This document shows, piece after piece, positions 3,928 to 45,555 of a stretch of DNA of 64,000 nucleotides. The position numbers and the translations under genes are program-made. The notes beneath the pieces are model-generated. The model was given only the letters and a program-made list of their open reading frames with translations, was not told where the DNA came from and searched no databases. Numbering within the stretch: the first letter of the stretch is position 1; each line of letters opens with the position of its first letter. Source of the stretch: an uncultured Enterorhabdus sp. (GTDB taxonomy: Bacteria; Actinomycetota; Coriobacteriia; Coriobacteriales; Eggerthellaceae); assembly GCA_947649205.1 (NCBI GenBank), contig CANSQM010000001.1, forward strand, positions 186,001 through 250,000. Direction: 5' to 3'.

Positions 3928-4068
3928 GGCACCTCCCATCCGAAAGAGCCGATTCCTGCCCAAAGTGGGAATGACTTCCATCGGGAATAAGGTGTTTCCG
4001 CAAAGCGGTGCGGAGACCCTCGCTGGCGATTGCGCCACAGGGCTCTTCCAGAATGAAAGTATGCATGC

Positions 4069-4091
4069 TATAATAGAACAAATGTTTCTAT
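4069..4091 (+). promoter_or_regulatory. Promoter and palindromic operator of the toxin-antitoxin pair
   Basis: A consensus -10 TATAAT (4069-4074) overlaps a dyad, ATAGAA (4073-4078) and TTCTAT (4086-4091). The -35 is weak. A dyad on the -10 fits autorepression by the Xre antitoxin. Confidence 0.5.
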
Positions 4092-4152
4092 ATGGCTGGG
4101 CATTGCCCTAACTTCTTCTCGGAAGGACAGCCTTCGTCCGGGAGGGGGTACT

Positions 4153-4575
4153 ATGGGCAACGTAAAGTCTCAGACAAATAATATACCTGTTGACTTCTAT
4201 ACTGAAAACCGTATAATCAAGTGGAACGTGGATGCAAGCCGTATCCGAAAATGGTACGGAACGCTTGACCGGCCAACTCGGGAATCGGTGGCTGCGGCTA
4301 TTGAGCTTCTCTCAGAGCGAGGTCCGAACTTGAAACGGCCTTTTGTGGGCGAGGTGCAAAGTTCCCGATTTCCTAACATGAAGGAATTGCGCCCGGCGTC
4401 TCCGAGAGGTACGGAATTGCGTATTCTGTTTGCATTCGATCCGCTGCGTCATGCCATCCTGCTGCTGGCTGGCGACAAGCAGGGGCGGTGGCGCAAATGG
4501 TATCAACGGGCGGTGCCTCAGGCGGATCGCTTATACCAAGAGCATTTGGACTCGCTGAACAAGGAGGTGCGCTGA
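4153..4575 (+). CDS. RelE/HigB-type toxin (Gp49-like)
   Basis: 140 residues, resembling the phage-derived Gp49-like/HigB branch of the RelE mRNA-interferase superfamily. Seen are the conserved stretches VGEVQSSRFPNMKELRP and GTELRILFAFDPLRHAILLLAGDK, then WRKWYQRAVPQADRLYQ, in the usual order with the basic and aromatic residues typical of ribosome-dependent RNases. The start has a GGGAGGGGG site. The stop overlaps the antitoxin ATG by one base, so translation is coupled. The toxin-first order matches HigBA. Function is inferred from family resemblance. Confidence 0.85.
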   Translation: MGNVKSQTNNIPVDFYTENRIIKWNVDASRIRKWYGTLDRPTRESVAAAIELLSERGPNLKRPFVGEVQSSRFPNMKELRPASPRGTELRILFAFDPLRHAILLLAGDKQGRWRKWYQRAVPQADRLYQEHLDSLNKEVR

Positions 4576-4904
4576 TGTATACCCTTGACGATCTTATTGA
4601 AGAGTACAACGTTGATCGTGCTGGCATTGAGCGCGAGAAGCAGAAGCTGCTGGCGCAGATAGAGGCCTACGAGTTGGCGGAGATACGCAAGCAGGCGGGT
4701 CTTACGCAGGTGCAGCTGGCCGAGAGCATGGGGGTGAGTCAGAAGCGCATCTCCGAGATAGAGCATGGGCGGGCCGGGGCCATCAAGCTCAGCACGCTCG
4801 AGCGCTATGCGGCGGCCCTCGGCGGAAGGCTCAAGGTGGAGATCGAATGTCCCACGGCCGACGGCACGGTGAAGTCGCTGCCCGTTCCGCTGGTGGCTTG
4901 TTAG
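4575..4904 (+). CDS. Xre-family antitoxin
   Basis: 109 residues. An N-terminal helical stretch of about 40 residues (EREKQKLLAQIEAYELAEI) is followed by a helix-turn-helix domain (RKQAGLTQVQLAESMGVSQ) and a short tail. It should bind the toxin and repress the shared promoter. The AAGGAGG for this gene lies inside the end of the toxin gene. Organisation and size are typical for HigA-type antitoxins. Confidence 0.85.
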   Translation: MYTLDDLIEEYNVDRAGIEREKQKLLAQIEAYELAEIRKQAGLTQVQLAESMGVSQKRISEIEHGRAGAIKLSTLERYAAALGGRLKVEIECPTADGTVKSLPVPLVAC

Positions 4905-41765: not shown

Positions 41766-41774
41766 TGTTACAAT
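41766..41774 (+). promoter_or_regulatory. Extended -10 promoter of the antisense RNA
   Basis: TGTTACAAT matches the extended -10 consensus TGnTACAAT. A start near 41781 would make an RNA of ~80 nt. Confidence 0.6.
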
Positions 41775-41780
41775 GGCCGT

Positions 41781-41860
41781 GCCTAGAAGACTTGGCCCCG
41801 AAGGGCCGGGACGCCGCAAGGACGTCCCGGTTGGCGAGGGTGCCTAGTCCTCGCCTTTTT
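41781..41860 (+). ncRNA. Antisense RNA of a type I toxin-antitoxin module (predicted)
   Basis: The predicted transcript has a hairpin (GGGACG with CGTCCC, 41807-41827) and ends in a perfect intrinsic terminator, GGCGAGG (41833-41839) and CCTCGCC (41849-41855) with TTTTT. It is complementary to the 3' untranslated region and the last 17 bases of the toxin gene on the other strand, the same overlap geometry as TxpA/RatA and BsrG/SR4. Existence is inferred from promoter and terminator signals. Confidence 0.6.
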
Positions 41861-41972
41861 GGTTGGAAGATCCGTCGTTCTGCGGCGGATCTCCGCTTTT
41901 CAGGGTCAATAGCGCAACCCCCAGAGTGGCAGCTCCAACAAGAGTCTGAACCAAGGCCAGGAAAACGCTCAT
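41844..41972 (-). CDS. Small hydrophobic type I toxin (holin-like toxin family)
   Basis: 42 residues. One membrane helix (VFLALVQTLVGAATLGVALL) follows a two-residue start and precedes a polar tail ending KGED. Size and pattern (MS.F.AL, then a helix, then a charged tail) match the holin-like/TxpA-type peptides that depolarise the cell's own membrane. The site TAAGGGGAGG lies 8 bases before the ATG and can pair with an upstream CCTCCC. An antisense RNA gene overlaps its end. An alternative ATG two codons upstream is too close to the site. Confidence 0.65.
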   Translation of the reverse strand: MSVFLALVQTLVGAATLGVALLTLKSGDPPQNDGSSNQKGED

Positions 41973-42051: not shown

Positions 42052-42092
42052 TATAATACAATCAAATGTTCGTTAATATAAGTCTTGACATT
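42052..42092. repeat. 41-bp direct repeat, copy 1 (DR1)
   Basis: Identical over all 41 bases to 42693-42733. It begins TATAATACAATC and ends TCTTGACATT. It lies 80 bases upstream of the type I toxin start and carries its presumed promoter on the minus strand. Confidence 0.95.
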
Positions 42093-42157
42093 CGAGGACT
42101 AGAATTTTTATAATCAACCCAACAACCCGGCGGTCCTGCTAATAGGAACGTCGGGTT
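42085..42157 (+). ncRNA. Predicted short transcript antisense to the 3' end of the nuclease gene
   Basis: TTGACA (42085-42090) and TATAAT (42109-42114) are both perfect and 18 bp apart. Just downstream, 42124-42136 pairs at 12 of 13 positions with 42145-42157, followed by a T-run. The product would be ~40 nt and complementary to the last codons of the nuclease gene. Only DR1 gives this promoter; DR2 lacks the TATAAT. Confidence 0.4.
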
Positions 42158-42659
42158 TTTCGCTTAGCGGGATGTCTATCACGCGACCTTCTTTCGAGAC
42201 AAAAAGCGCATCGGTGAATCCATGTTGCTCAAGTCTTTTTCTCAGCTCAGTTATGAGGTCGCTGTCATCAAGGGCGTGGTATCTTGCATTGAAGATGAGG
42301 CGCGGGTGGTAGGGCGAACCAAGGATCTTCTTGAATTGTTTCTGCGCTTTTCGAACGGCAGTTTCTACGCCTCGCAGTGTATCACCGTTGGGACTTTTTA
42401 TTTCCCAAAGCTGCCCATCCATGCAAAGGTCGATGTTTGCCTGTCCTGTTGGTGCATTTTCGGGAAGAACCTCGAATGAATAATTCGCAAGCACGAGTGC
42501 GGCATGCACGAAAAGATCGCGTGTGCTATCGCTTTTGAGAAAAGAATCGATGGGCTTGGAGTAGACGATTGTGCCTTCCTTGGTCGACTTTGCCAAGAAG
42601 TTGAGGAGTTGGTGCGTATCCCAGCATGAGATGCCCGGGTTAGAATTGAGAAACACCAT
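42114..42659 (-). CDS. Orphan CdiA-C-like PD-(D/E)XK nuclease
   Basis: 181 residues. The core APTGQANIDLCMDGQLWEIK, then SPNGDTLRGVETAVRKAQKQ, resembles the C-terminal tRNase domain of contact-dependent inhibition toxins (CdiA_C, PD-(D/E)XK fold), with Asp, Glu-x-Lys and Gln positions visible. There is no secretion or delivery domain, so it acts, if at all, inside the producing cell. The gene is much more AT-rich than its neighbours. It sits alone between perfect 41-bp repeats. The start follows GAGGAGG. No immunity gene is visible beside it. Confidence 0.5.
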   Translation of the reverse strand: MVFLNSNPGISCWDTHQLLNFLAKSTKEGTIVYSKPIDSFLKSDSTRDLFVHAALVLANYSFEVLPENAPTGQANIDLCMDGQLWEIKSPNGDTLRGVETAVRKAQKQFKKILGSPYHPRLIFNARYHALDDSDLITELRKRLEQHGFTDALFVSKEGRVIDIPLSEKPDVPISRTAGLLG

Positions 42660-42680
42660 GGCACCTCCTCAAGTACTGGA

Positions 42681-42703
42681 ATTGTATTATCTTATAATAC
42701 AAT
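42681..42703. repeat. Perfect 10-bp inverted repeat at the edge of DR2
   Basis: ATTGTATTAT, CTT, ATAATACAAT. Half of it lies in DR2 and half in the cassette. It is 22 bases upstream of the nuclease start codon, so it could be its operator or a recombination site. Confidence 0.65.
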
Positions 42704-42733
42704 CAAATGTTCGTTAATATAAGTCTTGACATT
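42693..42733. repeat. 41-bp direct repeat, copy 2 (DR2)
   Basis: Exact copy of DR1, 641 bp away. It lies directly upstream of the nuclease gene and supplies its presumed promoter region. Confidence 0.95.
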
Positions 42734-42811
42734 GCAAGATAGTGCAATTCTTGCTGTCGTGCTTGCTTGCTCAATACAACTTATGAACAGGCATTTCGTA
42801 GCTATATCATT

Positions 42812-42877
42812 TTTGTCATAGTTTGTCCTACATTTTATCTTGACAACCTATGACAGAGTATGACAAACTGTGACAAG
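42812..42877. promoter_or_regulatory. Three-site operator array upstream of the molybdoenzyme gene
   Basis: A 16-bp motif close to GACAAACTATGACAAA occurs inverted at 42812-42827 and direct at 42842-42857 and 42862-42877; each copy has at most two mismatches to it. The last two are exactly 20 bp apart, placing them on one face of the helix. A cognate regulator is not identified. Confidence 0.6.
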
Positions 42878-43027
42878 AAGAATCCGGCCGATTCTGTTCA
42901 CGCTAGAGGAGCCTCGCAAACCGGGTGTCGAAAGCATTGGGCGAGGGGAGGGGAAGGCCAGCGACTCCGCCTGCGGTGCGCACCGCAGCAAGGGTCGCGA
43001 GGACGCCCCGCTATCAGAGGGGGAGAG

Positions 43028-45555
43028 ATGTCGGAAACCAAGAGCCCGCATTCCGGACTCACCCGCAGGAATTTCCTGAAAGCCACGGCTGCGGTAACGG
43101 GTATGAGCGTCCTTGCGGGGTCGGCTGCTACGCTGGCCGGCTGTTCCACGGCGACCGAAGGGCATTCGCTGAGCTCTACCGGAGAAGAGCAAATTTTCTC
43201 GACCATCTGCCGATCCAACTGCTTCCAAGCCTGCTTGCTGAATGCCCACGTTCGCGATGGCAAGGTTGTGAAGATGTCCCGGGGCGACTATCCCGAGGAG
43301 ATATATTCTGGTTGCTGCCTGCGAGGACTGAGCATTCCCGAGCGAACCTATAGCGACAACCGGATCAAGTACCCGCTCAAGCGCGCCGAGGGCACCACAC
43401 CGAGGGGTCGGGCGAATGGGAGCGTATCTCGTGGGATCAAGCGCTCGAGGAGATTGCCGCGAAGATCAAGGGCATTCAGGAGGAATACGGTTCGGACGCG
43501 GTGTCCTTTGGGACGGCATCGGGCAACTACGGCAGAATTCAAGGCAGTGCCCTTGCCCGGTTTATCAACGTAGTGGGTGGCACGGTGCCCCAGCTCATGT
43601 CGGATTTCACCATGGGGTGGGGCACCAATCGCGTAATGGGTGGCGGGACGTTCGGCTACAGCAATGAGCCGAAGAGCATGATCGATGCCCGCCATATCAT
43701 CATCTGGGGCACCAATCCAGTGTGGTCGACGCCCCAGACGTGGCGCATCATCCTTGCAGCGAAGGATCGCGGTGCGAGGCTGCACTGCATCGATCCCATC
43801 CGCTCGGCCACGTCTCGCTACTGCGATGAGTATATCCAAACGAACGCCGGTACTGATCTGTATGTTGTTCTCGCCCTGCTCAATGAAGTGGTGAACAACG
43901 ACCGCATTGATGCGGACTATGCCGCTCGGTGCACAACGGCGCCGTTTCTTATTCGCGAAGATACGGGGCTCTTCCTGCGCCGCTCCAACCGAGAGGGCGG
44001 CGAGATGGCCGCGGTTCGCGATGCGGTTACGTTGAACACGCCGGAAAGCGGCAAGGCCGATCCCGCCTATGTGATAGATGCGGCTTCGGGGCAGGCCGCT
44101 TTGTACACTGAATGCGACGCGCCGGTGCTCGAAGGAGAGTTCGAGATCGACGGCGTAAAGGTGAAGACGGCCTATCGCGCACTTAAAGAGCACATCGCGC
44201 AGTACACTATTGCGGAAGCGTCCAAGCTTTCGGGCATTCCCGAAGATACACTGCGGGAGCTTGCGGCCATCTATTCCTGCGGCGAGGCGGTTACCACCTA
44301 CACGCAGTTCGGCATCGACCATTACCGCGAGGGCCATTTGTGGGGCCAGGCGCTGGCTATTTTGAGCGCCCTCACCAATAATCTCTCGCGGCCTGGAACT
44401 GGCATCGGTGGTCCGGGGGCGCCCAACGGGTCGCTCATTCCCATCGGGTGCAACCCGGCCGTGCTCACTGGGCTGAATCCGGTGAAGTTGGATGCGGTGA
44501 ACAAGCAGCTGTGCCTCAGCGCGTGGATCGAAACGGTTAAAACCGGCACGTTCAAGGGGGAGCCCTATACGATCAAGGCGTTCATTAGCAGTATCGGCAA
44601 CCCCTTCAGCAATAATGCGCAGCAGCGCATGTGGATCGAGGATGCGGTCGAGAACCTTGATTTGATCGTTTCGCTTGAATTGGAGATGACCGACACTGCC
44701 CGGTATTCCGATTACGTACTGCCCGTGTTCTACTGGCTCGAGCATACCGATGTGCGCGGCAATTTCTCGAACCCCTACATTGCCTACCAGGAGAAGGCCA
44801 TCGACCCTCTGTGGGAGAGCAAGACCGATAACGAAATTCTCTCGCTGCTGGCGGAGAAGATGGGGCTAGGCGAAGTGTTTCCTCATCTTACCGAAGAAGA
44901 ATAGGTCGATGTTCTCTTCGATTCCGACGCCATGCGCGAGAAGGGCATCACCAAGCAGCGCGTTCTGGAGGAGAAGGCCGTGCGCAGCTTCGGCACTGAG
45001 GAAGAGCCGTGGATTATCGGGGGATACGGGCAAGAGTTCCCCACTCCTTCGGGTCGTGCGGAGATCTATTGCGAGATTCCCCTTGCCCGATACGATTTCG
45101 GGCAGGACTGGCAAAGCGAGGCGAAGGAGCAACAGTTCCCCGTGTGGCTGCCTCCCTATGAGAATTGGCCGGGTTCCGAAGCGAAGAAGAAGTACCCGCT
45201 GAGTTATTTGCAGCTGCACGAGCGGTGGAGAACCCATTCCCAGTGGTTCGGCTGCGCGACGTTCCGGGAGATCGATAGGGAGCCGTTGTGCCACATCTCT
45301 CGCGAGGACGCCCTTGAGCGCGGCATCACCGATGGCGACATCGTCGAAGTGTTTAACGATCGGGACCATTGTGTGGTAAAGGGCATCATTGATGAGTCCC
45401 TGCCGTCGGGGGTCTGCTGTATCCCGAAGGGGTGGCAGCGCTATCAATTCATCGAGGGTGGCTTCCAAGAGCTTACCTCGAATGCCGTGGACGCCTGCTC
45501 GGGAGGATACGCATTCTACGATGCGACAGTTGATGTCAAGAAGTGGGAGGACTAG
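43028..45555 (+). pseudogene. Broken molybdopterin oxidoreductase catalytic subunit (DMSO reductase family)
   Basis: The gene begins with a Tat signal and lipobox (RRNFLKATAAVTGM, LAGC) and a 4Fe-4S motif (CRSNCFQAC and later Cys). Later parts match the family: IIIWGTNPVWSTPQTW, LSRPGTGIGGPGAPNGS, and the C-terminal cofactor-binding domain (HISREDALERGITDGDIVEV). Two defects are seen: a one-base loss near 43405 (the frame resumes at GEWERISWDQALEEI) and an in-frame TAG at 44902-44904. Repaired, it would be about 842 residues. The start has GAGGGGGAGAG. Substrate unknown. An operator array precedes it. Confidence 0.85.

Follow-up and report, generated by a model that had tools for sequence, protein, structure and literature searches.

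The window, i.e. the whole 64,000-nucleotide stretch of DNA analysed, contains two 41-bp direct repeats (DR1 and DR2) which, judged by their sequence, are copies of one LexA-type (SOS) promoter, the first in front of a small hydrophobic peptide and the second in front of a nuclease gene with a putative small RNA gene at its 3′-end. With moderate confidence, the locus is read as a type III-like module of nuclease and RNA antitoxin that came under SOS control next to a type I toxin, itself SOS-controlled, in which the RNA would neutralise the nuclease and DNA damage would induce both toxins. The features of the locus are as follows.

41781–41862, plus strand: predicted antisense RNA directed against the type I toxin, whose gene it overlaps at the 3′-end; conserved in five congeners
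41844–41972, minus strand: predicted type I toxin MSVFLALVQTLVGAATLGVALLTLKSGDPPQNDGSSNQKGED; its strong Shine-Dalgarno sequence could be masked by a complementary stretch upstream
42052–42092, minus strand: DR1, putative LexA-box promoter of the small toxin (box 42059–42072, -10 TATTAT 42053–42058)
42085–42090, plus strand: TTGACA at the end of DR1, putative -35 of the RNA gene
42085–42114, plus strand: putative sigma-70 promoter of the RNA gene, TTGACA-18-TATAAT, 12/12 consensus positions
42114–42659, minus strand: solitary CdiA-CT-like PD-(D/E)XK nuclease of 181 aa, with predicted catalytic residues D77, E86 and K88
42121–42160, plus strand: predicted hairpin RNA of about 40 nt, candidate RNA antitoxin (stem 42124–42157, followed by a T-run)
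42681–42703, no strand: 10-bp inverted repeat across the edge of DR2 (arms 42681–42690 and 42694–42703), not conserved in congener G008
42693–42733, minus strand: DR2, putative nuclease promoter (LexA box 42700–42713, -10 42694–42699)

The first-pass annotation had described two identical repeats bracketing one AT-rich gene for a CdiA-C-like nuclease, and this description was confirmed. The repeats were identical at 41/41 bp, 641 bp apart, and the ORF list gave a single minus-strand ORF between them, in an AT-rich dip with a GC content of about 0.47–0.54 compared with about 0.65 around it. DR1 immediately precedes the small toxin ORF and DR2 the nuclease, likewise as first described. Within the 2.7-Mb genome, a search allowing up to three mismatches found no copy besides these two. 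The perfect inverted repeat reported at the edge of DR2 does exist, but it is missing in G008, a relative with the same cassette, and is therefore probably due to chance.

A LexA matrix was built from the lexA and recA promoters of nine congeners (a genus of nine species, g1), which had conserved boxes such as CAAACAAATGTACG, AGAACCTTTGTTCG and CATACGTTTGTTCG; in the recA promoter of the genus, the box directly abuts the -10 TATAAT. The minus strand of the repeat has the same layout, with CGAACATTTGATTG directly abutting TATTAT. Each DR box scored 15.7 with this matrix, compared with 13.8–20.0 for the lexA and recA boxes, and was without two symmetric positions of the best LexA boxes. In simulated 41-bp sequences of the local AT-rich composition the score was reached with a p-value of about 0.001, and in the 64-kb window the two DR boxes ranked second only to one other site. 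Type I toxin loci of the genus, including paralogues located elsewhere, had a LexA-type box at the promoter in 11 of 12 cases (score up to 20.0 among the paralogues), which in six of the loci was CGAACATTTGTATG or a close form.

On the basis of the box match, the recA-like layout and the boxes at 11 of the 12 toxin loci, the repeat is a copied LexA-type (SOS) promoter, at which LexA would bind and which DNA damage would induce. As in members of the LexA regulon, a box matching the lexA/recA type of the lineage overlaps the promoter. The first-pass annotation had missed this identity of the copied element, as well as the putative -35 hexamer that DR1 also provides to the RNA gene. A LexA-like site was present upstream in just one of 60 other solitary CdiA_C nucleases, and SOS control thus appears peculiar to this cassette.

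Two further sites of this kind were observed. Of all LexA-like sites in the window, the highest-scoring, AGAACAAATGTTTC at position 4075, follows immediately after a TATAAT and lies upstream of a Gp49/HigB-like toxin (4153–4575) and an ORF for an HTH antitoxin (4488–4904), so that region 4060–4904 is apparently a second toxin-antitoxin pair, of type II, under SOS control. In another genus, locus L026 (1480–1540) has a DR-like promoter with the LexA-type box AGAATATTTGTTCG abutting TATAAT in front of a HigBA-like pair.

The small ORF behind DR1 encodes a hydrophobic peptide of 42 aa, for which no family was matched in Pfam. Its Shine-Dalgarno sequence could be masked, and the convergent RNA, which is conserved, has both an extended -10 promoter (TGTTACAAT at 41766–41774) and a terminator (41833–41860). 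Peptide and RNA together have the anatomy of a type I toxin-antitoxin pair, with the peptide as the predicted toxin.

The nuclease of the window scored 18.2 bits against CdiA_C (PF18451), below the Pfam cut-off of 26.6, and its assignment follows from homologues above that cut-off (L096, 35.7 bits; L101, 64.3 bits; L012, 39.7 bits) and from the fold. In the AlphaFold2 model (mean pLDDT 81), the best structural match was the CdiA-CT toxin of Burkholderia pseudomallei 1026b (4g6v) with a Z-score of 11.2, the next match having 6.1, and residues D77, E86 and K88 were invariant in the family alignment A1. The protein is, on the basis of the model, of CdiA_C-type fold with catalytic D, E and K. The CdiA-CT of B. 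pseudomallei 1026b is a tRNA nuclease (PMC5576092). Residues after about 165 were of low confidence, and the last 15 or so, encoded by the hairpin region, were predicted to be disordered.

Outside the genus, the closest relatives were found in other Coriobacteriia, as the C-terminal domains of MuF-like phage head proteins, with MuF-type fusions in L096 (VG15 domain) and L097, whereas the window protein is solitary and without an N-terminal MuF/VG15 head domain. No immunity ORF adjoins the gene. Tblastn with the window nuclease against phage and plasmid records returned no relatives, PADLOC gave no match, and NCBIfam only a single chance match below cut-off. A profile scan of contigs with the window protein alone had no match, and the same scan with the family alignment found eight loci; only two matches outside the class were obtained in a phylum-wide search.

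Five congeners (G001, G002, G004, G005 and G007) have the small toxin with one promoter and the same upstream intergenic DNA, but without the nuclease. When positions 42093–42733 are removed from the window, the flanks align straight through with the congeners, best with G005, and the five single promoters are homologous to the repeat, though clearly diverged. The comparison with relatives proposed at first pass thus found the cassette-free locus with one (diverged) promoter, and it supports the earlier suggestion of a duplicated promoter, with two potential toxins under one copied control region.

Another congener, G008, has the nuclease together with DR2 at 40/41 identity. Its left edge retains no more of the repeat than GTCTTGACTTT (11–12 bp), and the nuclease contig, which ends there, does not include the small toxin. 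With an ftsH identity of 88–89%, compared with 91% for G004, G008 is not the closest relative of the window genome. Between the two nucleases the amino-acid identity was 70%, with dN 0.20, dS about 2.6 (synonymous sites saturated) and dN/dS about 0.08, which indicates purifying selection; the 40/41 identity of DR2 despite saturated synonymous sites implies that the repeat is either strongly constrained or homogenised.

The alternative offered at first pass, in which a single-gene cassette is mobile and the repeats serve as its sites of recombination or attachment, was rejected as very improbable. The direct repeats are perfect, relatives have empty sites, and identical repeats would permit precise loss by homologous recombination. 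Yet no recombinase is encoded between them (ORF list), the repeated element coincides with a promoter, the left repeat of G008 is reduced to its short remnant, and the single promoters of the relatives are diverged and do not form perfect excision scars. The proposed search for the repeat beside other cargo, carried out family-wide, met only the same locus in G008. Even harder to credit is a selfish, homing-like nuclease that would cleave the site with one promoter and insert a copy of itself and of the promoter there: the identity of DR1 and DR2, and of DR2 in G008 at 40/41, is what recurrent conversion would give, but the nearest fold is that of a tRNase toxin and not of a homing enzyme, and the relatives, whether in phage head genes or at scattered solitary loci, have no repeats of this kind.

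Additional observations concern the surroundings of the cassette. In G008, the same intergenic locus (L071 1–420, G008:C57) has an ORF which by eye resembles a Phd/YefM antitoxin, and this suggests that the spot collects toxin-antitoxin genes. On the other side of DR2, a molybdopterin oxidoreductase gene (42860–44904) is split between two frames near 43390–43500 by a frameshift, which may be genuine or due to faulty sequencing. Upstream of it, inverted repeats common to the congeners were found at 42734–42749 (TTGCAAGATAGTGCAA) and 42812–42867 (TTTGTCATAGTTTGTCC...TATGACAGAGTATGACAAA), which are probably regulator sites.

The putative plus-strand promoter has its -35 at the end of DR1 and its -10 inside the cassette, and is directed into the 3′-end of the nuclease gene; the corresponding TTGACA in DR2 has no -10 downstream. 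The hairpin behind it had a folding energy of -20.7 kcal/mol. G008 has TTGACT-18-TATAAT at the same place (11/12), and the 34-nt hairpin core is identical in the two genomes though the nucleases are only 70% identical. As the spacer, the remaining left repeat and the gene had diverged in G008 while promoter hexamers and hairpin core were kept, the CdiA_C family was examined for similar RNAs.

A promoter and a hairpin of fitting size were found at the 3′-end of 57 of 64 solitary CdiA_C genes, compared with six of 111 control gene ends taken from the same loci, and several of the seven genes scored as misses show the RNA by eye. In this solitary family the RNA is located downstream of the nuclease on the same strand, with its own promoter. 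Rfam gave no relevant match for the CdiA_C-adjacent hairpin RNAs. The main RNA type (A, 37 sequences) had 94.9% of its alignment cells paired, 11 of 15 pairs changed on both sides, and the covariation score was 0.485, compared with 0.206 for shuffled and at most 0.109 for slid alignments. Solitary nucleases from Endomicrobia and from further Coriobacteriia are accompanied by a second type (B), which has a CUGGAUAG-like loop. The hairpin in the window falls outside type A, the strongly covarying one, and is tied to type B solely by the short loop motif CUG..AUAG.

A covariance model found the main RNA type (A) in 65 of 137 genomes of the family. At loci without an intact adjacent nuclease, the promoter was kept in 25 of 31 cases, with the -10 mostly 9–10 nt before the RNA, and a nuclease remnant was present upstream in four of the 31 tested orphan loci. 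Some of the RNAs stand in tandem, as pairs spaced by about 50 nt. Members of this RNA family without an intact nuclease gene were observed as orphans in the window's own genome (L208–L209; G000:C19 and C16) and in L211, L212, L214 and L215; in L211 the nuclease ORF overlaps the RNA, one of these loci has a nuclease remnant, and tandem pairs were seen among them.

These hairpins might be mere intrinsic terminators behind CdiA_C genes, with TTGACA an accident of the C-terminal codons and the repeats still SOS promoters, which we regard as rather unlikely. A T-run ends many of the hairpins, and most -35 boxes overlap the codons (ATT GAC AT) of a conserved C-terminal motif ...IDIK. Genes lacking TTGACA, however, often carry an extended -10 (TGnTAnnnT), and the window has its -35 in DR1, where there is no coding sequence. 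Conservation of the internal loop and of the sequence moreover goes far beyond the needs of a terminator, and the RNA structure with its own promoter is kept at loci without an intact nuclease and in tandem pairs. For the window and G008, where the hairpin is inside the nuclease reading frame, an alternative view is that it could be a fossil phage terminator.

Persistence of RNA and promoter beyond the nuclease, the tandem pairs, the constant adjacency and the absence of an immunity ORF all argue that the hairpin RNA is probably the antidote of the nuclease. That this antidote works simply as an antisense (type I) antitoxin, directed at the 3′-end of the nuclease mRNA, is unlikely. The window RNA is fully complementary to the last 14 or so nuclease codons, its loops are complementary too, and the neighbouring toxin has the same convergent layout. 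The RNA is antisense to the nuclease mRNA in the window and in G008; in the solitary family it is on the nuclease strand, downstream of the gene, and cannot pair with the mRNA as an antisense RNA. The RNA is therefore not generally antisense, and direct neutralisation or decoying of a tRNase-like enzyme is favoured, with antisense pairing possible in the window.

A convergent hairpin like that of the window also accompanies phage MuF-CdiA_C toxin genes. Read on the strand opposite to the nuclease, the hairpins from MuF phages, from G008 and from the window have the type B loop motif in common, and in seven of the first eight of them folding was better on that strand because of G-U pairs; in several further MuF loci the strand preference was weak, absent or reversed. 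MuF-CdiA_C genes of Mycobacterium and Tsukamurella phages have no room for such an RNA, and the hairpin DNA pattern had no match in viral contigs. In L096, L097, L098, L099 and L103, the hairpin is followed by a tRNA-Trp(CCA) gene about 30–90 bp after the stop codon of the MuF nuclease (for L103, an Rfam search identified the tRNA and the CCA anticodon was recognised by eye); should the nuclease cleave tRNA-Trp, the gene could supply a replacement.

About even weight is given to the broader reading in which a large CdiA_C toxin family, solitary proteins and MuF fusions alike, is neutralised by a structured RNA of about 40 nt in place of an immunity protein, orphans and tandems act as RNA immunity, and the pair in the window was rewired to SOS control by copying the promoter of its neighbour, with one 41-bp sequence serving both directions.

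Promoter copies, LexA boxes, empty sites, the RNA promoter with its hairpin, and covariation and adjacency in the family were read from sequence; from these we infer LexA binding, SOS induction, toxicity and neutralisation of the nuclease by the RNA. The ancestral locus would have held one SOS-controlled type I toxin, in front of which a phage-derived CdiA_C nuclease arrived with its small RNA gene, leaving the promoter present twice, so that DR2 would drive the nuclease and DR1 the type I toxin. DR1 would serve a double duty, as SOS promoter of the small toxin and as -35 of the antidote RNA on the other strand. LexA would repress both toxins in the undamaged cell, and the hairpin RNA from its presumably constitutive plus-strand promoter would restrain residual nuclease, by binding the protein, by acting as a decoy, or by pairing with the mRNA. 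After DNA damage, repression would be lifted and toxin synthesis would exceed the RNAs, leading to growth arrest or altruistic death.

Two ingredients of the locus have precedents: type I toxins under LexA control, such as TisB, and protein toxins countered by an RNA antitoxin (type III). TisB/IstR-1 of Escherichia coli comprises a small hydrophobic type I toxin under LexA control and an antisense-type RNA, and the small toxin of the window is alike in size and hydrophobicity, putative SOS promoter and predicted antisense-type RNA. The window peptide is, however, unrelated, its antisense RNA overlaps the 3′-end of the toxin gene, and an exact copy of its promoter serves a second toxin. RalR/RalA and SymE/SymR are toxins other than small peptides with RNA antitoxins, SymE being SOS-controlled; they resemble the proposed nuclease pair in the RNA antitoxin of a non-peptide toxin and, for SymE, in SOS control, but belong to other protein families, and their RNA pairs with the toxin mRNA. 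TisB acts after DNA damage (PMC11997105).

Type III systems (ToxIN, CptIN, TenpIN and AvcID) similarly combine a protein toxin with a small structured RNA gene, sometimes in tandem copies. The toxin fold of the window is that of CdiA-CT PD-(D/E)XK nucleases, and not that of ToxN or AvcD, and the CdiA_C RNA, usually a single copy with a promoter of its own, is placed downstream of the gene or convergent to it, unlike the type III operon order of RNA repeats upstream of the toxin with a terminator between. As toxin family and operon order differ, and neutralisation is a proposal, the CdiA_C/RNA pair was not filed as type III; it is described here as working in the manner of such a system. With CdiA-CT 1026b (4g6v) and the phage MuF polymorphic toxins (PMC5576092) the nuclease has the fold and catalytic residues in common, and its nearest relatives are C-terminal domains of MuF-like head proteins; those toxins act after delivery into other cells and are matched by immunity proteins, whereas the window domain is solitary and an RNA gene takes the place of the immunity gene. 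A literature search did not find a CdiA_C nuclease paired with an RNA gene.

The locus illustrates how a toxin may be put under DNA-damage control through a copied 41-bp promoter. Should the RNA indeed be the antidote, there would be an RNA-based immunity to polymorphic toxin nucleases which protein-centred searches overlook, with orphan RNAs as the counterpart of orphan immunity genes. It would also explain the seeming lack of immunity in solitary CdiA_C genes and in MuF-CdiA_C phages.
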